A DNA stretch of 64,000 nucleotides from Candidatus Methanoplasma termitum (GTDB taxonomy: Archaea; Thermoplasmatota; Thermoplasmata; Methanomassiliicoccales; Methanomethylophilaceae), in the NCBI RefSeq assembly GCF_000800805.1, contig NZ_CP010070.1, positions 1,240,001-1,304,000 on the forward strand, given 5' to 3'. Below are positions 4,228 through 48,352 of the stretch, one piece after another. The notes beneath the pieces are model-generated. The model made no database searches. It was not told the DNA's origin and worked only from the letters and a program-made list of their open reading frames with translations. Positions within the stretch are counted from its first letter, which is position 1. Each line of letters starts with the position of its first letter. A program made the translations under genes and the position numbers.

Positions 4228-4785
4228 TCACCCGAACAGGATGTCGGACAAGGCCTTTATCTCAGTATCCCAGATATTCCGAAGCAGGGTCTCATACTGC
4301 ATGTCGACCTCTTCAGTGTCATCCTCGCTCTGAAGTACAAGGCCCGCACGTATCTTCGGGTCCTTGGTGACGGACTTTACGCCTAATTCCTTGGCAGTAA
4401 AGTTGTCCTTGTCAGAGATCACCACCTTCGGTTTGCCGATGACCGTCTTCGCCGATTCTATCATCTCTTTATACTGCCCAAGCTTTACATCCCTGGGAGC
4501 GGACTCCAGATCGGCGAGGAGTGTCTCGAATACCTTGGCGAGGATCTCTCTCTTCCTTGAGAGAACGATCTTCTTGCTTTCCAGCTCTGCGCTTGAAAGT
4601 TCCTGGCGTTTGAGACGCTCAACTGCTTCTTTGAGCTTCTTGTCCTCTTTTGCTTTCATGTCGGATATCTGTGCGTCCGCCTCGGCTCGGATCGCCCTGA
4701 CCTCTGCTTTGGTCTGAGCCTCGATCTCGCTGACCCGTTTGTCGGCGGACGCCCTGATCTCCTTCGTGACGTTATCTAATGCCAT
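4228..4785 (-). CDS. atpE: A-type ATP synthase subunit E
   Basis: Peripheral-stalk subunit E (185 aa), partner of subunit H. The N-terminal half is a long charged coiled coil rich in Lys, Glu and Ala, followed by a globular C-terminal domain, as in the family. It starts MALDNVTKEIRASADKRVSE. The gene sits 19 bp after atpK and 4 bp before atpC. Confidence 0.92.
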   Translation of the reverse strand: MALDNVTKEIRASADKRVSEIEAQTKAEVRAIRAEADAQISDMKAKEDKKLKEAVERLKRQELSSAELESKKIVLSRKREILAKVFETLLADLESAPRDVKLGQYKEMIESAKTVIGKPKVVISDKDNFTAKELGVKSVTKDPKIRAGLVLQSEDDTEEVDMQYETLLRNIWDTEIKALSDILFG

Positions 4786-4804
4786 GAAAAGGCCTCAGAC
4801 TTGT

Positions 4805-5050
4805 TTATCCACCCATCACGAATATTGCCATGATTGCTATGACCAGACCAAAGATGACGATGGTTTCCGGAAGGACCATGAAGATCATTGCCTTACCGAA
4901 GATGCTCGGGTCCTCTGTTATCGCACCCACTGCCGCTGCACCTACATCTTTCTCTGCCATACCTGCTCCGAGACCGGTGAGCCCGACTGCAAGTCCGGCC
5001 CCTATCGCTATGAGTCCCATTCCAAATTGCGTATCTCCTGTCAATGCCAT
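4805..5050 (-). CDS. atpK: A-type ATP synthase proteolipid subunit K (c-ring)
   Basis: Membrane rotor subunit of 81 aa with two hydrophobic helices (about residues 10-31 and 53-79) joined by a polar loop containing AEKDVG. The ion-binding carboxylate is Glu62 in the motif VLPETIVIFG of helix 2. It is a simple single-hairpin c subunit, not one of the fused multi-hairpin forms known in some methanogens. Whether the ring carries H+ or Na+ cannot be decided by eye. It lies between atpI and atpE. Confidence 0.95.
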   Translation of the reverse strand: MALTGDTQFGMGLIAIGAGLAVGLTGLGAGMAEKDVGAAAVGAITEDPSIFGKAMIFMVLPETIVIFGLVIAIMAIFVMGG

Positions 5051-5052
5051 TT

Positions 5053-7116
5053 TTATACCTCTTTACTAGTTTCTTCTTTTGTTAAGATTGTTCTAAAGCG
5101 TTTTATCTTCAACGGCTCGTATTTTATTCCTCCGCCGACAAAGAATTTCGTCATCAGTTCCACGAACTGCAGCCTCAAGGCGTGCAGTCCGGCAGAAAGT
5201 ATGCCTAACGTCCATACAACCAGATGCAGGAATGCGCACAGCACCAGCCCGATTACAAGGGCGTATATCGGGACGGCTCCCCAGTCCACGACTTCTTTCA
5301 TCCCCATTATCATTCCGAATGCTATGTAGTTGAAGGCCATTGCCATCCCTGCCTTGGACATTCCGATGGCCGCCAAACGTGTGTATGATAATATGTTTCC
5401 GACAATACCCGGAAGTTCGAGTATCGCCATGATCTTTTCTGTTTTAAAGTTAATAGCCACTCCCGCTACCAGCATCACGACGGCGATGACGAGAATATAG
5501 AGTAACATCCCCTCGATCCCCGTTTTGTTGAACAGCATCTGAGTAAGCACGTAACAGAGCATCACCATTCCAATGAACGTGATAATCCATCCGCCCTTTT
5601 CCATGAAAGCGTGCTTGTTGTTGTGCTGCATTCTTATGTTGATGTAGCCGCAAATGTATCCGATCAACAGGTGTACGACACCTATATACACGGACAGCTT
5701 TAGCAATAAACTAACATCTCCCAGCTTCTCGACCCCGATTTCGTTGACCATCATTCCAGAGAACCAATCAGGCAAATGTATGCCCAACAGCCCTTCCCAT
5801 GTCATTTCCAGTGGCGGCGCCCAGTGGCCGACAAAGTGCATTCCGAGTGCTTCCCCGAAGAAGAAGAACCCGAATAAGAATGCCCATATGCCGCCGAAGA
5901 ACAGAACAGTAGCGATGGCACGCCAGTCCTTGTGGCGTGTGACCTTAAGACCGTACGCTCCGAGTATTATGAACGGTATCGCATATCCGCAGTCACCGAT
6001 CATGAAACCAAAGAGCAGCGGAAGGAAGAACATGATCAGGATCGACGGGTCGATCTCCTGATATTTGGGTGTCGAGACCAGGTTTGTGGCGTACTCGAAT
6101 TCCTTCGCGATTATTCCGTTGTTACCTTTTGTGGGTACTTTTTTGAATCTTTCCTCAATCTCTTCTTCCTCGTGCAGGTTCCTGCCGCGCGTCTCTTCGA
6201 ATTCGACGTGGACATCGTTGCCCATTCTTGATTCTAGTTCCGACTTCACGGCCTCTACCTTTTTGGTAGGGATCCAGGCATCCATTATGTAGGAATACTC
6301 ACTGACTGCGATCCTGAGCGGGACCTCTCCCTTCTCGATCTCGATCGCAAGTTCCTCTTCCGATGCACGGAGGAATGTCTTGTGTTTCATCTGAAGTGCT
6401 TCGATCTCTTTCTCTGCGGACTCCAGCTTGGCGTTGAGGTCAGCCAAGCTTTCATTGGTCAGTACAAGCGCCTCTGAGGCTGATCCTTTTCCTTCCGGGA
6501 CCGCTATCTCAACGAAACCGCAATCCGAAAGAATGGATGTTGCTTTGTCCTTTTCCGAGTTCTTCACAAACACCGCTGCGGTGCCGCCTTTTTTCTTGTC
6601 AAAAGAAACAAATGTCTCGGCCTCAGCGAGCGCCTTGAGGGGCTCGGTCGGATTCTCCTGTACTGTTCCTACGATCACCGTCAGGCTCTTGTACCCTGAA
6701 TAGAGTTCAAGATCCACCGGGATCGCCGAGAGAAGTTCTAAGCTCTTCTTCTTGGTGTTTAACTCAGTGATTCTCAGATTAAGATCATTTTTCTTATCAA
6801 GTGCCTTTAGAACTTCGGCCTCGATGTCCTCGACGCTGCCAGATGATATCTGGGATCTTATTTCCCCAACGGGTACCCGCGCTGTTTCGGTATTTTTACC
6901 TACTCCGAGCTCTTTTGCCATCGCCCTTATCTTGAGCAGCCTTTCGGCGGCTTTTGAATTCCTTGGTAATGTGGCCCCGATGGAAATGTTGTCAACGCCG
7001 GAAGTATGATCTATTATGTGAAGCGCCCTGACGCTGTAGAAAGCCTCTATTGCTTCCTCCATGCGGGTCTTGGTGCCCACAACCACGATCCTACTCATCG
7101 ACTCAGGAAGCGACAT
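5053..7116 (-). CDS. atpI: A-type ATP synthase subunit I (a subunit)
   Basis: Membrane stator subunit I (687 aa) that provides the ion half-channels. The N-terminal half (about 1-340) is soluble with coiled coils; the C-terminal half has roughly seven or eight transmembrane helices. The block LPGIVGNILSYTRLAAIGMS around residue 570 contains the conserved channel arginine region. The chosen ATG overlaps the atpH stop by 14 bp and has GAGAGG about nine bases upstream; a second ATG six codons downstream (MSRIVVVGTKTRM) is possible but has a weaker ribosome site. Confidence 0.95.
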   Translation of the reverse strand: MSLPESMSRIVVVGTKTRMEEAIEAFYSVRALHIIDHTSGVDNISIGATLPRNSKAAERLLKIRAMAKELGVGKNTETARVPVGEIRSQISSGSVEDIEAEVLKALDKKNDLNLRITELNTKKKSLELLSAIPVDLELYSGYKSLTVIVGTVQENPTEPLKALAEAETFVSFDKKKGGTAAVFVKNSEKDKATSILSDCGFVEIAVPEGKGSASEALVLTNESLADLNAKLESAEKEIEALQMKHKTFLRASEEELAIEIEKGEVPLRIAVSEYSYIMDAWIPTKKVEAVKSELESRMGNDVHVEFEETRGRNLHEEEEIEERFKKVPTKGNNGIIAKEFEYATNLVSTPKYQEIDPSILIMFFLPLLFGFMIGDCGYAIPFIILGAYGLKVTRHKDWRAIATVLFFGGIWAFLFGFFFFGEALGMHFVGHWAPPLEMTWEGLLGIHLPDWFSGMMVNEIGVEKLGDVSLLLKLSVYIGVVHLLIGYICGYINIRMQHNNKHAFMEKGGWIITFIGMVMLCYVLTQMLFNKTGIEGMLLYILVIAVVMLVAGVAINFKTEKIMAILELPGIVGNILSYTRLAAIGMSKAGMAMAFNYIAFGMIMGMKEVVDWGAVPIYALVIGLVLCAFLHLVVWTLGILSAGLHALRLQFVELMTKFFVGGGIKYEPLKIKRFRTILTKEETSKEV

Positions 7117-35691: not shown

Positions 35692-36780
35692 TCAGGGGAA
35701 GATGCGTTTGCATCTGATGAGATCGCCCATGCGTCTTTCTCCGAGAATGCTCATACAGATGCTTGTTCTTCTGTCGGAACCGAAAGCTAGAACATCGGCA
35801 AGTTTTTTGTTGGATGCGGCTGTCCTCAACGGCTTGCGGAAGATCTTTTCGCATTCTGCCTGATAGTCCGTAAGGCTCCTGCCGTTCATGCAACGGTCAC
35901 CTGCGACCTCGCCGCAGACCCTCCCAGCTATAAGCGCCAAAGGCAGCCCTCCGCCGTTGACCGATATCACTTGGCCAGCTGCGTCGCCGACCACCATTCC
36001 ATTATCGGAAACGATCCTTGAGATCATCCCTTCGCTCGGGACGTATTTTCCTTCAAGCTTTGTCGTCACATCGAGATCGTGTTTCGTTCTGAACTTCTCG
36101 AAGTATTCGCTCAATGTGCCGTCGGCGAACTTCGGGGAAAACCCCACGCCGACGTTCGCCTGTCCTTTCTTCGGGATTATCCAGCTGTATGCGCCCGGAG
36201 CTATTCCGCCGAAGAACATTTGAACATATGGCTCAAAATCTCCTTTCGCCTGTGCGGTCACGGCCGGATACAGATCATTATTTTTCGGAATACCCAGCGA
36301 TCTTGCTACTCTCGATCCGGGGCCGTCGGCGCCGATTATCACCTTGTACTCGATATCTCCCAATGATGTCTCCGCCTTCCCGTCCTTTGTTTTAATGAAG
36401 AGACATCCCTTCACCAACTGAGCGCCTTCCTTCTCCGCCTCAGACACTATGTGCTTGTCGAATCTGTCGCGGTCTGTGGTGTAACCTGTGAAATCAAGCA
36501 GCCTCTCTTTCCCTTTCGGATCTATGAGTTTTATCCCTTCGATGTCCCTGAGTTTCAATTCCTTAGGAATATCAAACAACGAAGATATATCCCCGGCGTT
36601 GGGGAACATACCGATTATCTCATCGTTCGAAGGTATCAATTCGCCGCACCTTACCGGGACGCCGACCTCCGGCCTTCTTTCGATGATGATGACGTTCGCT
36701 CCTTTTGTTGCGGCATATTTGGCGGCGGTCCCGCCGGCCGGCCCAGCACCGACAATGAGGACATCGGCTTTCATTGACAT
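35692..36780 (-). CDS. Geranylgeranyl reductase family flavoprotein 1
   Basis: FAD-dependent reductase that saturates the isoprenoid chains of archaeal lipids, probably digeranylgeranylglycerophospholipid reductase. 362 aa. The dinucleotide-binding motif GAGPAGGTAAKYAA is at residues 11-24, followed by ERRPEVGVPVRCGEL with the family cysteine, and VGDAAGQVISVNGGGLPLAL near residue 265. It lies 6 bp after the prenyl synthase gene, so the two form a lipid operon. A second family member is at 61719-62876; which acts on lipids and which on other prenyl chains cannot be told here. Confidence 0.88.
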   Translation of the reverse strand: MSMKADVLIVGAGPAGGTAAKYAATKGANVIIIERRPEVGVPVRCGELIPSNDEIIGMFPNAGDISSLFDIPKELKLRDIEGIKLIDPKGKERLLDFTGYTTDRDRFDKHIVSEAEKEGAQLVKGCLFIKTKDGKAETSLGDIEYKVIIGADGPGSRVARSLGIPKNNDLYPAVTAQAKGDFEPYVQMFFGGIAPGAYSWIIPKKGQANVGVGFSPKFADGTLSEYFEKFRTKHDLDVTTKLEGKYVPSEGMISRIVSDNGMVVGDAAGQVISVNGGGLPLALIAGRVCGEVAGDRCMNGRSLTDYQAECEKIFRKPLRTAASNKKLADVLAFGSDRRTSICMSILGERRMGDLIRCKRIFP

Positions 36781-36786
36781 TCTGCG

Positions 36787-37752
36787 TCACCTGTTACGGG
36801 CAACTATGAATTTAGAAAGATCGATCAGCGATCGCTTATAGACGGAATCGTCGATAACATCGAGCATACCCATCGATGCTTCCGCTATCTCCTTTGCCTT
36901 TTCCATGCATCTGGGTATAGCGTCTGTCTTCTTGATCAGGGCGATGACCTCCGACACTTCCGCCCAGCTGATCTCTTTGTTCCTGAAGAAATCCTTTATC
37001 TTTTTACCGTAGACCGGGTCCTGCATCGCATATATCGCGGGGAGTGTCGGTTTCCCCTCGACCATATCGCTGCCGATCCTTTTTCCCGTCGTTCCCTCGT
37101 CGCCGTTCACATCCAGAACGTCATCGACGATCTGGAATGCCAGCCCGGTTTGGAATGCGAACTCCCCCACTTTTGCTATCGAATCGATATCTGCACCGGC
37201 AAGGAACGCTCCGATCTTTGCGCCGCACTCTATGAGTCTTGCGGTCTTCCCTTCGATTATTTTCAGGTAGTCCCCTTCCGTTACCGATATGTTATGTTCG
37301 AACTCTTTCTGAATGAACTCGCCCGCCGCCATCGCAGCTGACGCATCGACGATAAAATCCACTATCTCTGGAGATGCGGAGCCGATAAGTCTGAACCCCT
37401 GGGCGAACATGAAGTCCCCGGCGACGATGGATTTGCCGATCGAGTACTTTCTGTATGCCGCCTGCGCCCCTCTTCTCAGATCCCCTTCGTCGTTGATGTC
37501 ATCGTGTACAAGCGTGGCGTTGTGAATGATCTCTATCGCGGTGGCGACATCCAGCGTCTTTTTTACGTTCTTCCCCCCGCATGCGCGGAATGACAGTATG
37601 CACATGGCAGGCCTTATTCTTTTACCGTTCGAATTGAGAACATAATTGCATATCTCGGTGAGCTCGCGGTTTTTTGACCTTACCGTATTCATCATAAGTT
37701 TCTCTACTTTATCCAGATCACCGGATATAGAAGAATACCAAGGCTCGTCCAT
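36787..37752 (-). CDS. idsA: Trans-prenyl diphosphate synthase (geranylgeranyl/farnesyl type)
   Basis: Builds the C15-C20 prenyl diphosphate for ether lipids by adding isopentenyl units. 321 aa. The first aspartate-rich motif is DDIND at residues 84-88 within LVHDDINDEGDLRRG; the second is DDVLD in FQIVDDVLDVNG near residue 215. NSNGKRIRPAMCILSF near the N-terminus is the substrate-binding region. The chain length of the product is not assigned from sequence. First gene of the two-gene lipid operon. Confidence 0.92.
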   Translation of the reverse strand: MDEPWYSSISGDLDKVEKLMMNTVRSKNRELTEICNYVLNSNGKRIRPAMCILSFRACGGKNVKKTLDVATAIEIIHNATLVHDDINDEGDLRRGAQAAYRKYSIGKSIVAGDFMFAQGFRLIGSASPEIVDFIVDASAAMAAGEFIQKEFEHNISVTEGDYLKIIEGKTARLIECGAKIGAFLAGADIDSIAKVGEFAFQTGLAFQIVDDVLDVNGDEGTTGKRIGSDMVEGKPTLPAIYAMQDPVYGKKIKDFFRNKEISWAEVSEVIALIKKTDAIPRCMEKAKEIAEASMGMLDVIDDSVYKRSLIDLSKFIVARNR

Positions 37753-37858: not shown

Positions 37859-39388
37859 TCAACCGAGCAGTGCCGATGCTGCGCTTGTGCAGAAGTCCAT
37901 AAGGAGCTGAGGATACACACCGAGTATGATCACGAACGCCAAACATATCACGATCGCTGCGGTGAAGGGCTTCGGGATCTTTACCTTGTCGGTGGTCGCT
38001 CCTTTCTCGATGAACATCACTTTGATTACCCTGACATAATAGTACAGCGAGATCGCAGAGTTCAGAACCGCTATGAAAGCCAGCCATACCCATTGAGCCA
38101 TCTGACCGTCGACGAATATCGCAGAGGAGAACAGGAAGAACTTTCCCGTGAAACCCGCAAGCGGCGGTATACCTGCCAATGAGAACAGGAACAGCATCAT
38201 CGCTATTGCGAGGAACGGCGCCCTCTTTGCAAGACCCTGATAGTCCGAGATCTTCTCGCCTATTCCGGCGGAGATCAATCCGCCGACGATAAGGAATGCT
38301 CCTCCCTTCATGAACACGTGCACAAACATATAGAACAGACCCGATGACAGAGCATACTCAGATGCGACCGCCATTACGATCAGAATATAACCTGCGTTGG
38401 CGATGCTTGAATACGCGAGCATTCTCTTGATGTTGTTCTGAGATATCGCGATGATGTTTCCGACGGTCATCGTTATTGCGGCAATGATCGCAAAGACATA
38501 CCTCACCTCCATCATGTTAAATGCTTCTGAGGCCGATGCCACAACGAAGATCATGAGGAATATCTTGAACAATGCAACAAATCCTACTTTCTTTGAACCT
38601 GTTGCCAGGAACATCGTGACGGGTGTAGGCGCTCCTTCGTATACATCAGGTGCCCACGCGTGGAATGGGGCTGCTGCAACCTTGAAGCCAAGGCCTGCAA
38701 TCAAAGTGATCATTGCGATACCGAATGCCCAGCTGAAGCCTGAGCCCGCTAACGTTGCTGCTATTTCTGAGATATTGGTGTTCCCCGTTACGCCATACAG
38801 CATCGAGAGACCATAAAGCGTCAACGCCGTGGACAATCCGCCGATGATGACGTATTTCACTGCGGCTTCCGCAGACCTCGGGTCCTTCCTCTTCATTGAA
38901 ACCAGAACATACGAGGTTATACTCGCAAGTTCGACTCCCAGGAAGATCGTTATGAGGTCGTTGGCGGTTGCCACGAACATCATACCGACGGCCGCCGCAA
39001 GCAGCAGAGAATTGAACGCACCGAAGTGGTGCCTCGTTGTCTCTGTGCTCGACGACGATACCAATGCGGCAAGCAATACCACCGTCTGGAACAGCAGTAT
39101 CATTACGCCTGCGAACGCATCATAGGTGAACAGATATAGGTTTTCGCCAAGAGCGTTCACACCCGTGACCCCATACCCATCTGTGTATTTGCCGAGCATC
39201 ATGATGATGTTTATTATCATCGAGATCGCAACTATCGCAAGCGTTATGCCTGTGACCACGTTCCTTCTCTTTGTACCGAAGTATACCGCAGGCATTATCA
39301 GCGCACCTATTATCATGATGATCATCGGTGCCAGCGGGGTGAAATCCCCGAATATCGTCGTTATTGCTGATGGATCAACGTACATCAT
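37859..39388 (-). CDS. fpoN: Fpo complex subunit N (NuoN-like)
   Basis: Antiporter-like proton-pumping membrane subunit, 509 aa, about 14 helices. Typical blocks are FLGVELASITSYVLVSMKRK near residue 150 with the conserved Glu in helix 5, and GFKVAAAPFHAWAPDVYEGA near 235 with the pumping Lys/His residues. Last gene of the fpoABCDHIJJKLMN run; it starts directly after the fpoM stop. Complete. Confidence 0.95.
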   Translation of the reverse strand: MMYVDPSAITTIFGDFTPLAPMIIMIIGALIMPAVYFGTKRRNVVTGITLAIVAISMIINIIMMLGKYTDGYGVTGVNALGENLYLFTYDAFAGVMILLFQTVVLLAALVSSSSTETTRHHFGAFNSLLLAAAVGMMFVATANDLITIFLGVELASITSYVLVSMKRKDPRSAEAAVKYVIIGGLSTALTLYGLSMLYGVTGNTNISEIAATLAGSGFSWAFGIAMITLIAGLGFKVAAAPFHAWAPDVYEGAPTPVTMFLATGSKKVGFVALFKIFLMIFVVASASEAFNMMEVRYVFAIIAAITMTVGNIIAISQNNIKRMLAYSSIANAGYILIVMAVASEYALSSGLFYMFVHVFMKGGAFLIVGGLISAGIGEKISDYQGLAKRAPFLAIAMMLFLFSLAGIPPLAGFTGKFFLFSSAIFVDGQMAQWVWLAFIAVLNSAISLYYYVRVIKVMFIEKGATTDKVKIPKPFTAAIVICLAFVIILGVYPQLLMDFCTSAASALLG

Positions 39389-40891
39389 TTAAATCACCCC
39401 CGGTAATGCCGCCGTGAATTCCCTTACGAATCCGAGTGCCAGGTCCGGCCAGAGACCGAACAGCGCTATCAGTGCGCATGTCGCACTGAGAGCGATGACC
39501 TCCGGTCTGCTCAGGTCGTGTATGTGTGAGAGATCTATCTTCTTGGTAAGCCTTCCGAACATGCTTCTCTGCATTGCCCACAGGTAATATCCCGCGGTCA
39601 GCAGCAAGGAGAGCAGACAGAACGCCACCAGCCACAGCATGTTGATATCCGATGCATAGTTGAAGAACGAGAATATTATCCCGAACTCCGCCCAGAATCC
39701 TACCAATCCGGGAAGTCCCAGGGATGCCAAGAATCCAAACATCATGAATCCCGCGAGGAGAGGCAGCTTTCCGGCCAATCCCCCCAGCAGAGGTATCTCT
39801 CTTGTTCCGATGCTGTGCCCCGCTGCTCCGCAGGTCATGAAGAGCACTGCGGATATCAATCCGTGTGCGAACATCTGGAACACGGCGAACTGTATTCCCA
39901 TGCCGGACAGTGTGGCCATTGCGATCATGACCATACCCATGTGACTGACAGACGAGAACGCCACCATCTTCTTGAGATCCCTCTGTGCGATACAGGCGTA
40001 TGCGCCGTATATCATCGCCAGCAATCCTATGAACACCATTATCGGCTGCCATACGACCGCCGCGTCATGGAACAGGTTGAGATCGAGACACACTCTTATG
40101 ATACCGTACGAACCCATCTTCAGCATGACTCCCGCCAGCAGGACCGAACCCGCCGTAGGCGCTTCGGTGTGTGCATCCGGAAGCCATGTATGGAACGGTA
40201 CGATCGGCATCTTGACCGCAAATCCGAAGAAAAGCAGTCCGAACACCAATGTCTGGAATGTAGCGCTTAACGCCGTACCCGCGGCCACTGCCTCGAACGA
40301 GAAGTTCCCGCCCGTCGTTGCGAACACCAGTGCGAATATACCGATCAGCATGACCAGACTCGCTACGTGTGTATAGATGAAGAACTTGATAGCGGCGTAG
40401 TGCCTCCTCGGACCTCCGAACCACGATATCATGAAGAACATCGGGATCAGGGTCACCTCCCACATTATGTAGAAGAGGAAGTAATCTCCCGCCATGTACA
40501 CGCCCATCAGACCGACCTCCATTGCAAGCAGCAATGCGAAGAAGTAGTTGGGCCTGTCCTTCTCGCCTGCGGAGAATACGGTCGACAGGAACACGAGCAC
40601 TCCGGTTAGGAATACCATAAGGATGCTCAGTCCGTCCACGGTCAGGATATATGAAACTACGATATTGCCGAAGTTTATCCAACTGTGGCTTTCATTGTAT
40701 ACCGAAAGGTCCGGAGTGAACAGCAGGATAATGGACAATACCATTGTTATGCCGGAGAACACTCCCGCGACCCATTTCGCGTACTTTGCTCTCTTACCTC
40801 CCATCGCCAGCGTTGCTATCGCACCGACCAGCGGGAAGACCAGCAGCAGGGTCAGCAGATAAGGCATCTCAAAACCTATGTCGAAGAACAC
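39389..40891 (-). CDS. fpoM: Fpo complex subunit M (NuoM-like)
   Basis: Antiporter-like membrane subunit of 500 aa with about 14 helices. The blocks YIMWEVTLIPMFFMISWFGG near residue 145 and KMPIVPFHTWLPDAHTEAPT near 230 are family signatures. GTG at 40891 is chosen because GGAGG sits eight bases upstream; a GTG at 40900 and an ATG at 40867 are alternatives. It overlaps the end of fpoL only if the upstream GTG is used. Confidence 0.95.
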   Translation of the reverse strand: MFFDIGFEMPYLLTLLLVFPLVGAIATLAMGGKRAKYAKWVAGVFSGITMVLSIILLFTPDLSVYNESHSWINFGNIVVSYILTVDGLSILMVFLTGVLVFLSTVFSAGEKDRPNYFFALLLAMEVGLMGVYMAGDYFLFYIMWEVTLIPMFFMISWFGGPRRHYAAIKFFIYTHVASLVMLIGIFALVFATTGGNFSFEAVAAGTALSATFQTLVFGLLFFGFAVKMPIVPFHTWLPDAHTEAPTAGSVLLAGVMLKMGSYGIIRVCLDLNLFHDAAVVWQPIMVFIGLLAMIYGAYACIAQRDLKKMVAFSSVSHMGMVMIAMATLSGMGIQFAVFQMFAHGLISAVLFMTCGAAGHSIGTREIPLLGGLAGKLPLLAGFMMFGFLASLGLPGLVGFWAEFGIIFSFFNYASDINMLWLVAFCLLSLLLTAGYYLWAMQRSMFGRLTKKIDLSHIHDLSRPEVIALSATCALIALFGLWPDLALGFVREFTAALPGVI

Positions 40892-40892
40892 C

Positions 40893-42968
40893 TTAAACAC
40901 CTCCCATGTAATAGAAGAGAGCTATTATGAAGACACACAGCAGGACCACTCCGAACAATACTATTCCGGAGTAGTCGCGCACATCTCCCGTTTGGGCTTT
41001 GCTTGCGGCCTCTCCGCCGCCGACGACCGACGACGCCAATGCGTTGACCGTACCGTCCACGATCTGCGTGTCCACGAAATCCACTCCTTTGGCGACACCG
41101 TACCCAAGCTTCCATCCGATCTGGTCGTAAAGCTGCGGGAAGTACCACCTCTTTGTAAGTGCCGTATACAGCCGAGACTTGCCGTTCTTGTTGAGTTTGC
41201 CCGGATCGAACGATCCTCTGGCATACATGACATATGCAACGGCTATCGCTATCAGTACCAGTGCTACCGTGATGTAAGTGTATATGCTTCCGAATATCTC
41301 GGTAAGCCACTCTACAAGTCCCTTCGATTCACCGGACCCTACCATGAAATGCCATAACGTACTTCCTGCCGCATTGTTTCCAACATCATGTGGCATGATC
41401 GATACATACCCATCGAAGCCGAACAATAATATCAATCCTATCAGAGCTGCAAACACAGACAGTATGATCAACGGGATCGTCATGCTCTTTGGGGACTCCC
41501 CGTGGCAGTGGTGCGCCGTCTTCTTGCCCTTGAATGTCATGAACCACATCCTGAACATGTAGAATGCGGTCATGAACGCTGTAACGATGGCCAATATCCA
41601 CATTATTGTGAACACCCATCCGTCCAGCCCGTGGTTGCCGGCGTGCATCGCCGTTTCCAGCACTATTTCTTTTGACCAGAATCCGCTGAAGAACGGGAAT
41701 CCCGCAATGGACAGCGAACCGATCAGCATGGTGATCGAGGTGATCTTCATCTTACGATGCAGATTGCCCATCTCCCGCATGTCCTCCGTGCCTGTGGAAT
41801 GTATCACCGAACCGGAGCCCAGGAAGAGCAGTGCTTTGAAGAACGCATGGTTGACCATATGCAGAACTCCTGCAACGTAACCGACGGCTCCCGCCGCGAT
41901 CAATGCTTCGTTGTCGGTCTGCATTCCCAGCGCCATCATATATCCTCCCGCACCGAGTGCGAGGAACATGTATCCCAGCTGGGACAGCGTTGAGTAAGCA
42001 AGCACTTTCTTTATATTCATGTTGTTGAGAGCCATCGTTGCCGCGAAGAACGCCGTTATTCCTCCGATGAGGCCGACGAACAGCATCACCTCGGGGTTCT
42101 GTGTGAACAGCGGGAAACATCTCGCAACGAGGAACACACCGGCCTTGACCATTGTCGCTGCGTGTATCAACGCAGAAACGGTCGTGGGGCCCGCCATCGC
42201 ATCCGGAAGCCAGTCCAGAAGCGGGAACTGTGCGCTCTTTCCTATCACACCGCCGAATATCAGGAGGGAACCGAGCATTATCATGTTCGGGTCCACCTTC
42301 GCTATCAGATCGGCGCTGAACACCGTAGCATAGTCTAGGCTGCCGAACGAATACAATATCACAAACAACCCTCCCATGAGACAGACGTCCCCCAGCCTTG
42401 TGACCAGGAAAGCTTTCTTCGCTGCCGATGCGGCATTATCCGAAGCATCGTCCCCATTGGGGTGATCGAAGCTCCAGAATCCGATCAGGAGATATGAGCA
42501 AAGACCCATTATCTCCCAGAATACGAACATCTGAAGGAAGTTGCTAGATAATGCGAGTCCCAGCATTCCCGTCAGGAACAGTGAGACCTCGGCGTAGTAT
42601 CTTCTCTTTTTCTTACCTTCCTCGTGCATGTATCCTATCGAGTAGATGAATATCAGCGTCGAAATGAACGAAGCGAACAATATCATCACACAAGACAGGC
42701 TGTCGATGTATATTCCAAGCCTGAGATGGAAATCGCCGATGGAGAACCATGCAATGTCCGACATGAAGAACCCTTGCGTATGTTCTCCGTAATAATACCC
42801 TGATGTAAAGAACTCGTATGAGACGAGGACCGACATAACGAATGCGAACGCCGCACCGAATATTACGACCGGACCGCCTCCTTCGGGCATCTTCTTTCCG
42901 AAGAATCCCACTATCACAAAGCAAAGCACCGGGACCAGCGGGATCAGCCAAGCATATTCTAAGAACAT
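40893..42968 (-). CDS. fpoL: Fpo complex subunit L (NuoL-like)
   Basis: Largest membrane subunit, 691 aa, with about 16 helices and the long C-terminal lateral helix expected for NuoL. Signatures are FVFWEIMGLCSYLLIGFWSF near residue 150, AQFPLLDWLPDAMAGPTTVS near 250, and AATMVKAGVFLVAR just after. The acidic and lysine residues of the proton path are therefore present. ATG follows the fpoK stop after one base. Confidence 0.96.
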   Translation of the reverse strand: MFLEYAWLIPLVPVLCFVIVGFFGKKMPEGGGPVVIFGAAFAFVMSVLVSYEFFTSGYYYGEHTQGFFMSDIAWFSIGDFHLRLGIYIDSLSCVMILFASFISTLIFIYSIGYMHEEGKKKRRYYAEVSLFLTGMLGLALSSNFLQMFVFWEIMGLCSYLLIGFWSFDHPNGDDASDNAASAAKKAFLVTRLGDVCLMGGLFVILYSFGSLDYATVFSADLIAKVDPNMIMLGSLLIFGGVIGKSAQFPLLDWLPDAMAGPTTVSALIHAATMVKAGVFLVARCFPLFTQNPEVMLFVGLIGGITAFFAATMALNNMNIKKVLAYSTLSQLGYMFLALGAGGYMMALGMQTDNEALIAAGAVGYVAGVLHMVNHAFFKALLFLGSGSVIHSTGTEDMREMGNLHRKMKITSITMLIGSLSIAGFPFFSGFWSKEIVLETAMHAGNHGLDGWVFTIMWILAIVTAFMTAFYMFRMWFMTFKGKKTAHHCHGESPKSMTIPLIILSVFAALIGLILLFGFDGYVSIMPHDVGNNAAGSTLWHFMVGSGESKGLVEWLTEIFGSIYTYITVALVLIAIAVAYVMYARGSFDPGKLNKNGKSRLYTALTKRWYFPQLYDQIGWKLGYGVAKGVDFVDTQIVDGTVNALASSVVGGGEAASKAQTGDVRDYSGIVLFGVVLLCVFIIALFYYMGGV

Positions 42969-42969
42969 C

Positions 42970-43272
42970 TTACCACCTCATGGATGCGAGGCTGTCGGCC
43001 TCGATGGTGCCCTTCACCTTGTATGCGTTCAACAATATCGCGATTCCCACCGCGACCTCCGCCGCCGCCACCGATATGGACATCACTACGAACACTTCTC
43101 CGAGGACGTTTGTCGTGAATGCCGAGAATACGATGAAGTTTATGTTCGCCGCATTCAGCATCAGCTCGATGCACATCAGAACGACGATTGTGTTCTTCTT
43201 TGTCATGACCCCGTATGCTCCTATGGCGAAGAGCACCGCGGCGAACAGCAGGAAGACCTCAATCGGTATCAT
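42970..43272 (-). CDS. fpoK: Fpo complex subunit K (NuoK-like)
   Basis: Three-helix membrane subunit of 100 aa, the normal length from the ATG chosen (MIPIEVFLLFAAVLFAIGAY). CIELMLNAANINFIVFSAFT around residues 32-51 contains the conserved helix Glu and is the family signature. A GTG three codons upstream is less likely because its spacing to GGAG is too short. Overlaps the end of fpoJ2. Confidence 0.94.
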   Translation of the reverse strand: MIPIEVFLLFAAVLFAIGAYGVMTKKNTIVVLMCIELMLNAANINFIVFSAFTTNVLGEVFVVMSISVAAAEVAVGIAILLNAYKVKGTIEADSLASMRW

Positions 43273-43585
43273 CGTGCTCACTCTCCTCTCTCGCTATACA
43301 AACACCGCCGATCATGGCGCCGAACATAAGCAGCGCCAGGATCAGAAGCAACGGACCGTATTGCTCGAACAATGCATAGTTGAGCGAGTTGTGATCTATT
43401 GTCACGGTGGTCTCGCCCGTGTTCTCGTCGGTGATCTCGACCGTCCCGCCCGTGAAGTCGACACTTCCGGGAGTGTCTTTGATCCCGGGATTGACCTCTT
43501 TCCAGTCCGTAGCCATCACTGCCAGCGCAAATACCGCAAGCAGGGCCGCTGCCACACCAAGGCCTATAAGGACCTTCTTATTCAT
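43259..43585 (-). CDS. fpoJ2: Fpo complex subunit J, C-terminal half
   Basis: NuoJ is split into two genes here, as known for Fpo complexes. This 108-aa part has a helix at about 6-25, an outside loop rich in Asp, Thr and Val (TPGSVDFTGGTVEITDENTG), and a second helix near 76-96 (GPLLLILALLMFGAMIGGVC). ATG at 43585 overlaps the fpoJ1 stop and has AAGGTGA six bases upstream. The loop is the least conserved-looking part of the complex in this window. Confidence 0.85.
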   Translation of the reverse strand: MNKKVLIGLGVAAALLAVFALAVMATDWKEVNPGIKDTPGSVDFTGGTVEITDENTGETTVTIDHNSLNYALFEQYGPLLLILALLMFGAMIGGVCIAREESEHDDTD

Positions 43586-43907
43586 CCGAATCACCTTCAC
43601 TGCGCATTATATACCTTCTAGTCAACATAATGCTGAATGCGAACAGGATCGTGATCGCACCAACATACACCAGCATCTGGATAACACCGACGAACTCAGC
43701 CTCCAGGAAGAAGTAAGTGACCGCCACGCAAACGAATACGAGGGCGAGGTAGAATGCACTGTGCACCACCTCTTTCGCAGTCACCACGTACAACGCAGCG
43801 GCTATGGCTATCGCGGCCAATACGACAAAGGCCACGAGATCCGAGTTAGTCCAGAGGTACCCCATCACGTTGCAGAATCCGTTCCATATATCTAACATGA
43901 GTCCCAT
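43578..43907 (-). CDS. fpoJ1: Fpo complex subunit J, N-terminal half
   Basis: 109 aa with three helices; FVVLAAIAIAAALYVVTAKE then VVHSAFYLALVFVCVAVTYF and VGVIQMLVYVGAITILFAFS are the NuoJ N-terminal signatures, including the conserved helix-3 Gly/Tyr segment. The ATG overlaps the fpoI stop by one base (TAATG). The remaining part of NuoJ is the next gene. Confidence 0.92.
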   Translation of the reverse strand: MGLMLDIWNGFCNVMGYLWTNSDLVAFVVLAAIAIAAALYVVTAKEVVHSAFYLALVFVCVAVTYFFLEAEFVGVIQMLVYVGAITILFAFSIMLTRRYIMRSEGDSDE

Positions 43908-44647
43908 TATAGCACCTCATATATGTGGAGCGCGTCCTTCGGACAATCCTCCACGCAATTCTGACAGCATATACAGGTGGCCTGGTTGAACTCGGGGTAG
44001 AGTATCGGTCTCCCCTTTTCGTTCACGCCGTGTTCGACCATCTTAACGGCCTTCACGGGGCACACCTTTTCGCATTTCTTACAGCTTATGCACTTTTTCT
44101 GATCCAATACAGGCCTGTCGGTCATGAACGGCGATATCCTCTTTTCCGAGTTCCCGTTCTTTACGTCCGACATCAGGGTCATTTCCAAATGAACCTCCAT
44201 CTTCTCGGTCGCATTGTACGCGAGCCTCTTCGGACCGTATATCAGATCCTCTCTCGTGTACTCGGCGAGCTCGAATTCGGGAGTGACCGTCATCGCGTTC
44301 ACCGGGCAGTATTCAGCACAGTATCCGCACATGGCGCATCTTCCGAGGTTGACCTGAGGCCTCATGACCTTCTCTCCGGCGCTGTTGTCGGTCTCCACCA
44401 GCTTGATGCAGGCGGTGGGGCACATCTTTACGCACATACCGCATGCGACACACCTTTCGAGCCTGAGCCCGGGGCGTCCGCGGTAGTTCTCCGGCACCCA
44501 CATCTTCTCGTATGGGTAAAGGATTGTTACCGGTCTGTGTATGATGGTCTTTCCGAACAGCCTGAGAACTTTCACAATGGGCTTCATGACCCAGAGGACC
44601 CTTGCGGGGTTCCTCGGATACTTCTCCAAGTATTTCTTCTCGGCCAT
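43907..44647 (-). CDS. fpoI: Fpo complex subunit I, extended form with four 4Fe-4S motifs
   Basis: Iron-sulphur subunit linking soluble and membrane arms. At 246 aa it is about 100 residues longer than ordinary NuoI/FpoI. The first pair of motifs, CVACGMCVKMCP and CAMCGYCAEYCP, is the normal one; a second pair, CISCKKCEKVCP and CICCQNCVEDCP, follows in a ferredoxin-like C-terminal extension, giving 16 cluster cysteines. The ATG at 44647 lies in TGATG with the fpoH stop and has GGAGG nine bases upstream. The extension may carry electrons from ferredoxin in place of the missing FpoF; that is inference. Confidence 0.92.
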   Translation of the reverse strand: MAEKKYLEKYPRNPARVLWVMKPIVKVLRLFGKTIIHRPVTILYPYEKMWVPENYRGRPGLRLERCVACGMCVKMCPTACIKLVETDNSAGEKVMRPQVNLGRCAMCGYCAEYCPVNAMTVTPEFELAEYTREDLIYGPKRLAYNATEKMEVHLEMTLMSDVKNGNSEKRISPFMTDRPVLDQKKCISCKKCEKVCPVKAVKMVEHGVNEKGRPILYPEFNQATCICCQNCVEDCPKDALHIYEVL

Positions 44648-45819
44648 CAGAACCAACCTCCGAGTTTAAGCACAATCACGATCATAAGATTCACCACTGC
44701 CAACGGCATGAATATCTTCCACCCTATGTTCACGATCTGATCCGTCCTTACTCTTGCGAGGGCTCCTCTCAGGATTATCATTCCCAGGAACACCAGCCAG
44801 ATCTTCGCCAGCATGACTATCTCGGGCATTATGCCCTGCCAGCCGTCGGGTGCGAAGGGTATGAGCCATCCTCCGAGGAACAATATGACGATCATGGCGC
44901 ACGAGACATATCCTCTCATGTAATCCGCCAGCATGATCAGGCCCCATTTCATTCCCGCGTACTCTGTCTGCCATCCCTCCACAAGTTCGGCCTCTGCCTC
45001 GGCGATATCGAACGGTACACGTTCCGCCTCGGCCGTCGCACAATAGAAGAATGTTATGAAACCGATGATCTGCGGGAACAGGAACCACATTCCGTGCTGC
45101 GCATTGACGATGTCGCCTATGTTGAAACTGCCTGCCATCAAAGCGGCCGTGGCGATCATTATGAGCATCGGAACTTCGTATGATATCATCAGTTCCGCCG
45201 CTCTCATTCCTCCGATCAACGAATACTTGTTGTTCTGAGCCCAGCCCGACACCAATATAAAGAAGGGTGCCAGTGCGAACAGGGCCATTATTATCAGGAG
45301 TCCCGTTCCGTAATTGACTACGAACCATCTCCCCGAAAGAGGGATCATACATGCGATGAGCGCCGATGTCCCTATGATCAGTGCCGCAGTCCAGAGATAC
45401 ATCTTCTTGTCGACGTTCCTTGAAACGGTGTCTTCCTTCAGGAAGGTCTTGAAACCGTCTGCCAGACACTGCATGAATCCTTTCAGGCCGATCATGGTCC
45501 CTCTTCTGTCCATGACCCTTCCCAGGACCTTACGCTCCATCCACAACGATAACAATGTGACAATGAACGCCACCAGGAATATCAGTATCATGAATATCAG
45601 CAGGGCGAAGATATTCGTTATCTCCGGGGATATCAGCCATGTCGACAGCCCGTTACCGGGGAAGATAAGGTTGATTATCCACGAGATGAAGCCGCCGATC
45701 AGCTGCCATAGTTTGTAAGATATGTCGAATGGGAGGTTGTAGATATCTCCGAACGGATAGAACGGGTTGTCCATGACGTTGGAGAAATGTATCCAGTCTG
45801 TAATGTTGCTGTACGGCAT
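44647..45819 (-). CDS. fpoH: Fpo complex subunit H (NuoH-like)
   Basis: Membrane subunit joining the two arms and forming the quinone-type (here methanophenazine-like or unknown) access site. 390 aa, about eight to nine helices. VTLLSLWMERKVLGRVMDRR and EAERVPFDIAEAEAELVEGW are the two family signatures, the second carrying the conserved Glu residues. The N-terminus has an extra amphipathic segment of about 40 residues. It begins 4 bp after fpoD ends. Confidence 0.95.
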   Translation of the reverse strand: MPYSNITDWIHFSNVMDNPFYPFGDIYNLPFDISYKLWQLIGGFISWIINLIFPGNGLSTWLISPEITNIFALLIFMILIFLVAFIVTLLSLWMERKVLGRVMDRRGTMIGLKGFMQCLADGFKTFLKEDTVSRNVDKKMYLWTAALIIGTSALIACMIPLSGRWFVVNYGTGLLIIMALFALAPFFILVSGWAQNNKYSLIGGMRAAELMISYEVPMLIMIATAALMAGSFNIGDIVNAQHGMWFLFPQIIGFITFFYCATAEAERVPFDIAEAEAELVEGWQTEYAGMKWGLIMLADYMRGYVSCAMIVILFLGGWLIPFAPDGWQGIMPEIVMLAKIWLVFLGMIILRGALARVRTDQIVNIGWKIFMPLAVVNLMIVIVLKLGGWF

Positions 45820-45823
45820 TTTA

Positions 45824-46969
45824 TCACCTGTCGGTCTCTCCCAGACACATATCTATCATTGCCATTATCACGGGCACGTCGGCGATCCTGGATCCCTGCA
45901 CCAGCGGCTTTGCCGCAGATACGTTGACGAAGATCGGACTGCGCACTTTGAGCCTGTACGGTTTGTCAGAACCGTCGGAGACGAGATACATCATCGACTC
46001 TCCGCGGGGATCCTCCAATCTCATGAACGATCTCCCCGCCGGCACCTTCGACGGCACCTTGAGTCTGTACGGCGCATTCTTCCCGAGGGCCTTCACCTTA
46101 TCCAGCGCCTGCAATATTATTTTGCATGACTGGAACATTTCCTCGATCCTGACCATGTAACGGGCGTACGAGTCCCCCGCCTTTAGGACGGGTACTTCGA
46201 AGTCTATTTTGTCGTAATTGTCATATGGGTCGTCACGGCGTATATCGAAATCGACGCCCGTGCCTCTCATGGCCGGTCCCGTGATGCCTAAGTTGGCGCA
46301 GTGCTCCCTTGTTAGGACCCCTGTGCCTTTCATCCTTGAAACGAATACTGATGAATCATCTATTAATCCGATGATGTCCCACATCGCTTTCTCGAAGCGC
46401 TTTATGCATCTTCTGGAATACATGTCGAACTCTTCGTCCGCATCGTTCCTTACTCCGCCTATGCGCGGGAAGTTCGTTGTCATCCTCGCACCGCAGAGTC
46501 TCATGTTGAGGTCCATGAAGAACTCTCTTTCTCTCATGGCCCACAGGAATACTGTGAGGTTCCCCAGGTCGGTACCTACTGCGGCCAGCCACATAAGGTG
46601 GGACTGGATGCGGCAGATCTCGTCGCCTATTATCCTGATGTATTTGGCTTTCTCGGGTATGTCGATGCCGAGCGCCTTTTCTACGGTCATACAGTACAGG
46701 TGGGTATACGTCATTGAAGCGGCGTAGCAGAGACGGTCCGCCATTGGTATGATCTTCGGATACGTCCTGTTCTCGCACTCTTTCTCCCATCCTCTGTGCA
46801 GGTAGCCTATTATCGGTTCTGCGTCTGCCACTATCTCTCCGTCCAGCTGGGCCTTAAGTGTCCATAGCCCATGAGAGAAGGGGTGCTGCGGACCCATGAT
46901 GACCCACATCTTGTCTGTGTGCATCGAGGATCTCTCGCACTTTCCGCCGATATAATCGTTCTCCATCAT
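45824..46969 (-). CDS. fpoD: Fpo complex subunit D (NuoD-like)
   Basis: 49-kDa-type soluble-arm subunit, 381 aa. MGPQHPFSHGLWTLKAQLDG near residue 25 is the diagnostic motif (usually MGPQHPSTHG), and RIIGDEICRIQSHLMWLAAV near 110 is the second. The ATG-ATG start overlaps the fpoC stop (ATGA) with GGGGGCAGGA just upstream. No hydrogenase cysteines are present, so it is not an Ech-type large subunit. Confidence 0.95.
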   Translation of the reverse strand: MMENDYIGGKCERSSMHTDKMWVIMGPQHPFSHGLWTLKAQLDGEIVADAEPIIGYLHRGWEKECENRTYPKIIPMADRLCYAASMTYTHLYCMTVEKALGIDIPEKAKYIRIIGDEICRIQSHLMWLAAVGTDLGNLTVFLWAMREREFFMDLNMRLCGARMTTNFPRIGGVRNDADEEFDMYSRRCIKRFEKAMWDIIGLIDDSSVFVSRMKGTGVLTREHCANLGITGPAMRGTGVDFDIRRDDPYDNYDKIDFEVPVLKAGDSYARYMVRIEEMFQSCKIILQALDKVKALGKNAPYRLKVPSKVPAGRSFMRLEDPRGESMMYLVSDGSDKPYRLKVRSPIFVNVSAAKPLVQGSRIADVPVIMAMIDMCLGETDR

Positions 46970-47433
46970 TCCTGCCCCCTTAATTTGTATGATTTTCTGA
47001 ACGGATAGAATTCATAGGAATCCGGCGTGAGGAGCCTCTCGAGTTTCGGGTGTCCGTCGAAGACTATTCCAAAAAGCTCATGCGTCTCCCTCTCGTGCCA
47101 GTTGCCTCCGCCCCATATGTCCGATACAGACCTTACGTGAAGGTCGTCCAAAGGCAGGTCGGTCGTAAGTTCTATTATTACGCCGCTGTAATAGTTGGAC
47201 AGGTGGTAAATGACCTCCATGTGATCCTTCATGTCGTTCCCCATGATCGAAGTTGCATGTTCGAACGAGAGGATGTTGTGAATATATTCACAAACGGGAT
47301 GGATCGCATCCTTCTCCACTTTTACAAATACTCTCCTTGTTGCGGTGCCGGTGACCTTTAACTTGTCTGAGAATTTGTTTCTGAGGAGCGTGGATATCTC
47401 TTCGACTGTCGGCTTTTCGCTTATTTCCGCCAT
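46966..47433 (-). CDS. fpoC: Fpo complex subunit C (NuoC-like)
   Basis: 30-kDa-type soluble-arm subunit, 155 aa, starting MAEISEKPTVEEISTLLRNK after GGAGGACTGAGC. The signature is SDIWGGGNWHERETHELFGI near residue 107, followed by DGHPKLERLLTPD. The frame is open further upstream inside fpoB, but that part is a shadow of fpoB. Separate from fpoD, as in methanogens and unlike fused NuoCD. Confidence 0.95.
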   Translation of the reverse strand: MAEISEKPTVEEISTLLRNKFSDKLKVTGTATRRVFVKVEKDAIHPVCEYIHNILSFEHATSIMGNDMKDHMEVIYHLSNYYSGVIIELTTDLPLDDLHVRSVSDIWGGGNWHERETHELFGIVFDGHPKLERLLTPDSYEFYPFRKSYKLRGQE

Positions 47434-47435
47434 GC

Positions 47436-47999
47436 TCAGTCCTCCATGAATATTCCTCTCGTGAAGTAGTCGTCTATCTTTTTCTGAAGAAGCATGAAAC
47501 CGTCTATCATCGCATCGGGTCTTGCGGGGCATCCGGGTATGTAGATATCTACCGGAACTATCTGATCCAGACCCTGAACTGTGTTGTACGAATCGTACCA
47601 GGGCCCGCCCGATATGGCGCATTCGCCCATTGCCACGACCCACTTGGGGTTCGGTATCTGCTCATAGAGACGCCTCAGGTCCGGGCGGATCTTTTTTGAT
47701 ATCCACCCGTTGACCAGCAAGATGTCGGTCTGTCTCGGCGATGATCTGTAGATCATACCGTAACGCTCGGCATCGAATCTCGGTGCGGAAGCGGCCGCCA
47801 TCTCAAGGGCGCAGCATGCCAGTCCCCAGTGCAGAGGGTGCATAGAATTTCTCATAGCCCAAGACCATATCGGTCCCGTGAGCTTATCCACAGTTTTTTT
47901 CGTACCTGCGCTAAGCAGATCGTTGATCATGGCTGATGACCATGTCATGAACTCTTCCTTGCTCATGGCAACAGCGTGGGGATACAGGCTCATATCCAT
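47436..47999 (-). CDS. fpoB: Fpo complex subunit B (NuoB-like)
   Basis: Carries the terminal 4Fe-4S cluster N2 next to the membrane. 187 aa from ATG at 47999, which overlaps the fpoA end by 10 bp and has AAGGAGG upstream. Cluster ligands are visible in LHWGLACCALEMAAA (paired cysteines), VVAMGECAISGGPWYD and YIPGCPARPDAMIDGF. Complete. Confidence 0.96.
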   Translation of the reverse strand: MDMSLYPHAVAMSKEEFMTWSSAMINDLLSAGTKKTVDKLTGPIWSWAMRNSMHPLHWGLACCALEMAAASAPRFDAERYGMIYRSSPRQTDILLVNGWISKKIRPDLRRLYEQIPNPKWVVAMGECAISGGPWYDSYNTVQGLDQIVPVDIYIPGCPARPDAMIDGFMLLQKKIDDYFTRGIFMED

Positions 48000-48352
48000 A
48001 GCGTTTCCTCCTTTTTGAGTGAGTACGCTACACCGAGGATCATTATTCCCAGCAGCAGGAGCATCCATACGGTCGCCATGGTCGAAAGACCGGAGAAGGC
48101 AACGGCCCAGATCATCAGGAATGTGGCGATCAGGTCAAACACAACAAAAATGATTGCAAAAGCATAGTATTGGAATTTGAACTGAACGTGGGCATCCCCT
48201 ATCGGTTCCGAACCGCACTCGTATGTATTTTCCATCCACTGAGTAGGTCTCTTCGGTCTTATGAACCTGGATGTCAACCACGCCAAGGGTGCAAAGCCCA
48301 TAGTCATGATGCCGACGACAACCAATGGTATGTAGGACACTACTAGTGACAT
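47990..48352 (-). CDS. fpoA: Fpo complex subunit A (NuoA-like)
   Basis: Three-helix membrane subunit of 120 aa and first gene of the operon. TYECGSEPIGDAHVQFKFQY around residues 43-62 is the NuoA signature, followed by YYAFAIIFVVFDLIATFLMI with the conserved acidic residue. The ATG lies in a TAATG that closes a three-codon upstream mini-ORF (ATG CGA GCC TAA) which itself has AGGAGG just ahead. Confidence 0.95.
   Translation of the reverse strand: MSLVVSYIPLVVVGIMTMGFAPLAWLTSRFIRPKRPTQWMENTYECGSEPIGDAHVQFKFQYYAFAIIFVVFDLIATFLMIWAVAFSGLSTMATVWMLLLLGIMILGVAYSLKKEETLWI

Follow-up and report, generated by a model that had tools for sequence, protein, structure and literature searches.

A second ferredoxin-like domain in the I subunit of headless complex I from Methanomassiliicoccales and related Thermoplasmatota: a candidate electron entry site

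Introduction

Complex I of the full bacterial type (Nuo) comprises 14 subunits. The 11-subunit form has no NuoEFG, and although ferredoxin has been proposed as its donor, the direct electron donor is described as an open question, no common donor protein having been found in bacteria (PMC11238625). In photosynthetic NDH-1, which also has no NuoEFG, delivery from ferredoxin relies on additional subunits (PMC11238625). The Fpo complex of Methanothrix also functions without FpoF: in Methanothrix membranes reduced ferredoxin drives heterodisulfide reduction, and either FpoB or FpoI has been proposed as the entry point (PMC10470525). That the headless Methanosaeta and Methanomassiliicoccales complexes oxidise ferredoxin is reported, on biochemical data, in PMC7886697 (citing others) and PMC7374477. 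For Methanomassiliicoccales, the lack of FpoF and FpoO and the proposal of ferredoxin as the donor have been published already (PMC4153887, PMC7374477), and the ferredoxin proposal also appears in PMC9478090, PMC6147122 and PMC6019823.

Here we describe the complex I operon in a window of 64,000 nucleotides from Candidatus Methanoplasma termitum. Subunit I has a C-terminal tail, of which no description was found in the open-access literature searched (one library). On balance we think that the tail gives this headless complex I (A–D, H–N) an input wire that is built into subunit I by covalent attachment, with ferredoxin as the most likely donor. A fused entry domain of this kind would provide a concrete, deletable site in archaea.

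Results

All the genes of the complex lie on the reverse strand of the window in one operon, at 1,277.9–1,288.4 kb of the genome, which encodes the headless set of 11 subunit types, with J split in two. The genes are fpoA/nuoA (47990..48352; PF00507), fpoB/nuoB (47436..48068; PF01058), whose product exceeds the cut-off of the NuoB model NF005012 and is by homology the carrier of cluster N2, fpoC/nuoC (46966..47433; PF00329; start picked by eye), fpoD/nuoD (45824..46969; PF00346), fpoH/nuoH (44647..45819; PF00146), fpoI/nuoI (43907..44647), the N-part (43578..43907; PF00499) and C-part (43259..43600; PF00499 at 20 bits, below the 33.2-bit cut-off) of fpoJ, fpoK/nuoK (42970..43281; PF00420), fpoL/nuoL (40893..42968; PF00361 and PF00662), and fpoM/nuoM (39389..40900) and fpoN/nuoN (37859..39388), both PF00361 and told apart by gene order. 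The gene for subunit I overlaps fpoH by one base on one side and fpoJ by one base on the other.

The sequence-only reading of this DNA had noted that neither FpoF nor FpoO is encoded in or beside the operon, and had proposed a search of the whole genome for fpoF. The genome is a single contig of 1,488,669 bases with a listed completeness of 99.96%, and profile searches of it gave no match to PF04432 (FpoF/FrhB; 3 of 14 control genomes positive), PF10621 (FpoO; one of 14 controls, M. acetivorans) or PF01512 (NuoF; nine of 14 controls), so that the absence of both Fpo proteins extends genome-wide and the difference from full bacterial-type complex I includes the absence of NuoF. A hidden FpoF was rejected: PF04432 was matched in 16 of 147 genomes of the order (PF01512 in six) and not in this one. 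Ten PF04432 loci of the order were fetched; in seven of them, read by eye from the translations, the protein either belonged to an HdrA/MvhD/GltB-like cluster (L234, L235, L236 and L238) or had other neighbours, with complex I genes not close by (L239, L240 and L243). At the first four loci, from families f3 and f6 of the order, an FpoF-like PF04432 protein with N-terminal cluster motifs stands apart from complex I genes and adjoins HdrA/MvhD-like and GltB-like frames (by eye).

Subunit I is a NuoI-type protein (TIGR01971) of 246 aa. As the sequence-only reading had recognised, its translation contains four [4Fe-4S] motifs of the form CxxCxxCxxxCP, starting at residues 66, 104, 186 and 225. 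The N-terminal part (residues 1–125; 44273..44647) consists of an N-terminal helix and the NuoI two-cluster domain, with motif 1 CVACGMCVKMCP (residues 66–77; 44417..44452) and motif 2 CAMCGYCAEYCP (residues 104–115; 44303..44338), and would hold the equivalents of clusters N6a and N6b by homology. It is followed by a linker (residues 126–175; 44123..44272), which was less conserved than the other three regions measured, and by the C-terminal tail (residues 176–246; 43910..44122), an extra 2[4Fe-4S] ferredoxin-like domain with motif 3 CISCKKCEKVCP (residues 186–197; 44057..44092) and motif 4 CICCQNCVEDCP (residues 225–236; 43940..43975). The Fer4 family was matched far above the Pfam cut-off, and three stretches of the protein passed individually.

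The closest relatives of the protein, at 86% identity, are encoded in Candidatus Methanoplasma MAGs. The window sequence was aligned with 68 of its 71 close orthologs, full or partial (L001–L071, among 79 loci kept; three, L035, L044 and L052, with 3, 3 and 4 motifs, were excluded as cut at a contig end). Membership of these loci in the order is partly inferred, as they are labelled either Methanomassiliicoccales or at a broader level. All 16 cluster cysteines were invariant in the 69 sequences and every row had exactly four motifs, which argues that the motifs are not a product of chance; the mean share of the commonest letter was 0.72 in the tail versus 0.63 in the linker. The tail is thus an additional domain, with a predicted two-[4Fe-4S] ferredoxin fold and eight cluster cysteines that are invariant in the 69 aligned proteins. 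Across the order, 145 of 147 genomes matched subunit I at E ≤ 0.001 and 128 at E < 1e-60; in 124 of these 128, counted by hand, a match in one piece reached query position 243 or later. Of the remaining 19 genomes, all drafts of at least 50 contigs, 17 gave a weak match and two gave no match.

Two AF2 models of subunit I were of moderate quality only (mean pLDDT 76.5 and 78.6, pTM 0.62 and 0.66). The best PDB matches found with Foldseek were NuoI chains of complex I, and FwdF chains appeared among the matches from rank 12. In a VIA alignment of the first model, residues 49–153 could be placed on the NuoI of a solved complex I (7a23_D; Z 12.2, rmsd 3.4, 105 residues aligned). In this comparison, where regions outside 49–153 were barely tested, the tail aligned with ferredoxin domains of oxalate oxidoreductase (model residues 173–246 on 5c4i_B; Z 10.2, rmsd 1.6, 64 aligned) and of the formate dehydrogenase-Hdr-Fwd complex (model residues 171–245 on 7bkb_A, a chain that we take to be HdrA; Z 10.1, rmsd 2.8, 68 aligned). 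Both enzymes exchange electrons with soluble ferredoxin. The 8Fe ferredoxin domains of 2-oxoacid oxidoreductases, HdrA, FwdF and MvhB share the fold and the paired motifs of the tail, but belong to soluble enzymes, whereas here the domain is fused to subunit I of complex I. In a sequence search of the PDB, the best stretch of every NuoI-type chain listed ended by profile position 161. The NdhI of photosynthetic NDH-1 (6hum, 6l7o and 6khi; 196 aa) is related to the present protein over profile positions 19–152, and a second ferredoxin domain is missing from the match. The tail domain and the loop between its motifs each have a net charge near zero, so that a basic patch suited to ferredoxin docking was not seen at this level of analysis and was rejected.

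The sequence-only reading had framed the extension in terms of methanogens, and this framing was not supported by a wider survey, because other families of the phylum encode the same tail in their complex I operons. In 389 Thermoplasmatota genomes, a profile search gave 161 matches at E values up to 1e-20. Among 39 loci read outside the order, subunit I had the tail at 17 and two motifs at 22. Loci with four motifs came from families f7 (five), f24 (five), f13 (two), f18, f20 and f40. Two f11 loci encode a subunit I with five and six motifs in 302 aa (L144, 4487-5392; L145, 4462-5367), the maximum found. Nine of the 22 two-motif loci showed no complete J–M set in view (eight had no J–M match and L175 had L only) and may be hydrogenase-like; the other 13, with a complex-I-type operon, served as the comparison set. 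The tail-bearing set comprised 37 genomes, the 17 read directly and 20 in which a profile match extended to at least position 240 (18 of f7 and two of f24).

In these 50 genomes outside the order, the haem-copper oxidase family PF00115 was matched in 30 of the 37 tail-bearers and 11 of the 13 two-motif genomes; PF00115 also covers NO reductases. With the tail found alongside COX1-family genes in relatives outside the order, its being specific to methanogens or to heterodisulfide docking was rejected. PF04432 was matched in none of the 50. PF01512 (NuoF type), a family that is not specific to complex I, was matched in three of the 37 tail-bearers versus nine of the 13 two-motif genomes; striking as it is, this association amounts to a single phylogenetic contrast (one independent pair; sign test p 1), so that a statistical link between the tail and NuoF was rejected and the tie between the tail and loss of the input module stands as one evolutionary contrast. 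Two-cluster complexes also occur in genomes without a NuoF match (G187, G206, G322 and G246), which indicates that a headless complex does not require the tail.

For the phylum of Methanosarcina, 294 genomes were sampled, giving 113 matches at E values up to 1e-18, of which 76 were examined. Subunit I had two motifs in 71, four motifs in four (G668, G733, G523 and G693) and a broken frame in one (G530), from a sample biased towards four motifs in that some loci were picked for their long reading frames. Within this set, the best frame held two motifs at each of 40 loci, which came from 39 genomes plus an additional copy in G671. The one named Methanosarcina FpoI that was read (G480, via L077, strain DH2) has two motifs. 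The extension is therefore not universal in Fpo.

Three of the four-motif loci in this phylum (L219, L220 and L221, from G733, G523 and G693) matched B, C, D, H and I with no J–M in view, and their operons perhaps encode energy-converting hydrogenases. At L207 (G530) the FpoI stretch contains an internal TGA and a single motif in frame; the stop may reflect a pseudogene, an error or readthrough. A plasmid search returned only distant matches of less than 60% identity, and the three listed were of the NuoI/formate-hydrogenlyase type or unannotated.

The descent of the tail was followed on a tree of the concatenated core subunits D, H and B (50 rows, 877 columns). Presence of the tail required two changes on this tree, compared with 16.6 in shuffles. 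A branch (77/86, not starred) separated the 27 tail-bearing rows of the window's phylum from the rest of the tree; joined by the tail-less L148 (f25) they were set off by a starred branch (100/98), as they were when L222, which also has a tail, was added (100/97). A clade of the tail-bearing rows and L222 that left out L148 was rejected (p-AU 0.0116). On a tree of single ferredoxin domains (73 columns), tails from the window's phylum grouped with one another (84/67, not starred) and not with the heads, while a second group (100/99) held the L219, L220 and L222 tails. This grouping, taken with the rejected clade, makes a separate gain in L222 likely. L148 itself (4665-5273, G162), which branches beside the tail-bearing rows, encodes a two-motif subunit I with a repetitive Lys/Ala/Pro/Glu-rich extension where the tail would be.

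The window's tail shared 33–43% identity with the tails of the phylum outside the order and 28–36% with their heads, and for f18 and f20 it was no closer to their tail than to their head. As these ranges overlap, the case that the tails share an ancestor depends on the spacing, the loops of the motifs and the trees, and it is not strongly resolved. The simplest account, though not proven, has one origin in the window's phylum and an independent gain in L222.

Although the complex is called Fpo-like in the literature, the NCBIfam scores of subunits I and D place it nearer to the Nuo type. Subunit I scored 163 bits against the NuoI model TIGR01971 over residues 33–145 (cut-off 113.05) and 111.9 bits against the FpoI exception model NF040612, where it fell short of the cut-off of 180; a 131-aa stretch of Methanosarcina FpoI scored 246.3 bits against the latter. 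Subunit D likewise passed the NuoD model NF004739 (424.2 bits, cut-off 360) and failed the FpoD exception model NF040602 (362.4 bits, cut-off 600), with 385.5 bits against a second NuoD model, TIGR01962, below that model's own cut-off of 459. On the core-subunit tree, a clade uniting the order with seven rows taken as Methanosarcina-type Fpo was rejected (p-AU 7.6e-38), the seven-row group having been defined, after inspection of the tree, from the Methanosarcina-phylum sample. Methanosarcina Fpo and the present complex thus have homologous core subunits and, placed between H and J, a subunit I of the NuoI type (L159), but differ in FpoF and FpoO, absent here, in the number of motifs in subunit I (two versus four here), in the model cut-offs and in their position on the tree. 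The scores and the tree together led us to reject the view that the Methanomassiliicoccales complex is a truncated Methanosarcina Fpo.

Discussion

From the predicted fold, the invariance of the cysteines and the absence of an input module, we infer that the tail is an electron entry site. The sequence-only reading had proposed the extension as a docking and electron-entry module for reduced ferredoxin or a heterodisulfide reductase partner; electron entry remains a fair reading, whereas the heterodisulfide reductase part was not supported, given the tail in relatives with oxidase-family genes and the distance of the organism's own Hdr genes.

In the mechanism that we propose, reduced ferredoxin made by MvhADG/HdrABC bifurcation, which is published, would dock on the tail. 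Electrons would then pass from one tail cluster to the other, on to the NuoI clusters N6a and N6b and so to N2 in subunit B, and this flow would drive proton pumping via the membrane arm. The tail would in this way stand in for the detachable FpoF or NuoEFG part, and the acceptor beyond N2 could be a quinone-like carrier or HdrD. Ferredoxin use in itself probably does not depend on the tail, since the Methanothrix Fpo uses ferredoxin without FpoF.

An alternative that we regard as unlikely is that the tail admits another donor, such as flavodoxin or a transiently docking soluble dehydrogenase or hydrogenase subunit, with ferredoxin as one of several. The lifestyles of tail-bearers vary, seven of the 37 outside the order having no COX1-family gene; the five and six motifs of the f11 loci suggest an adapted donor side; the basic patch typical of ferredoxin docking is not seen on the tail; and several donors have been proposed for headless complexes (PMC11238625). 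Against this stand the published ferredoxin activity for methanogens (PMC7374477, PMC7886697) and, weakly, the lack of any other redox gene in the operon stretches, where the scan covered complex I subunits only.

Less probable again is a mainly structural tail, whose clusters would stand where the lost head was and would shield N6a while electrons enter elsewhere. Two-cluster complexes whose genomes match neither NuoF nor FpoF are compatible with it, as is ferredoxin use by the Methanothrix Fpo, in which entry may not need a tail (PMC10470525). Mere filling of space would not, however, demand eight invariant cysteines or a tail better conserved than the linker.

Docking of a heterodisulfide reductase (HdrD or HdrABC) on the tail is quite improbable, and a heterodisulfide-specific role unlikely: the order lacks HdrE, and Fpo and HdrD have been proposed to form a direct complex (PMC7374477, also PMC6019823), but the idea is weakened by relatives with oxygen-reductase genes that carry the same tail, in families where most genomes bear a COX1-family gene, and the organism's own HdrB/HdrD-type genes lie near 43, 318, 911 and 1,434 kb, far from the operon. 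The 4Fe-4S passage in PMC4153887 concerns HdrA. Two long CCG-domain (HdrD-type) frames of 589 and 792 aa, at 1434124-1434759 and 43274-43885 of the genome, are unlinked to the operon.

The fused domain would also mark a clade of complexes in which methanogens are tied to relatives that have genes for oxygen reductases. We would tentatively suggest, at a little short of an even chance, that a Thermoplasmatota complex I clade, one that includes the seventh-order methanogens along with relatives bearing oxygen-reductase genes, swapped the input module for a ferredoxin domain with two to four extra clusters in subunit I; this would be a separate line of evolution of the complex I head, and these methanogens would have inherited a respiratory Nuo as their complex I, not a truncated Fpo. 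The argument that the Fpo-like complex of Methanomassiliicoccales is Nuo-type, and not a stripped Methanosarcina Fpo, bears in turn on how the order acquired its energy metabolism.

Directly 3' of fpoN and on the same strand, the window encodes a geranylgeranyl-reductase-like flavoprotein and a polyprenyl synthetase (35692-36780 and 36787-37752, reverse strand), a pair that possibly has a role in the synthesis of a prenylated membrane carrier or of lipids.
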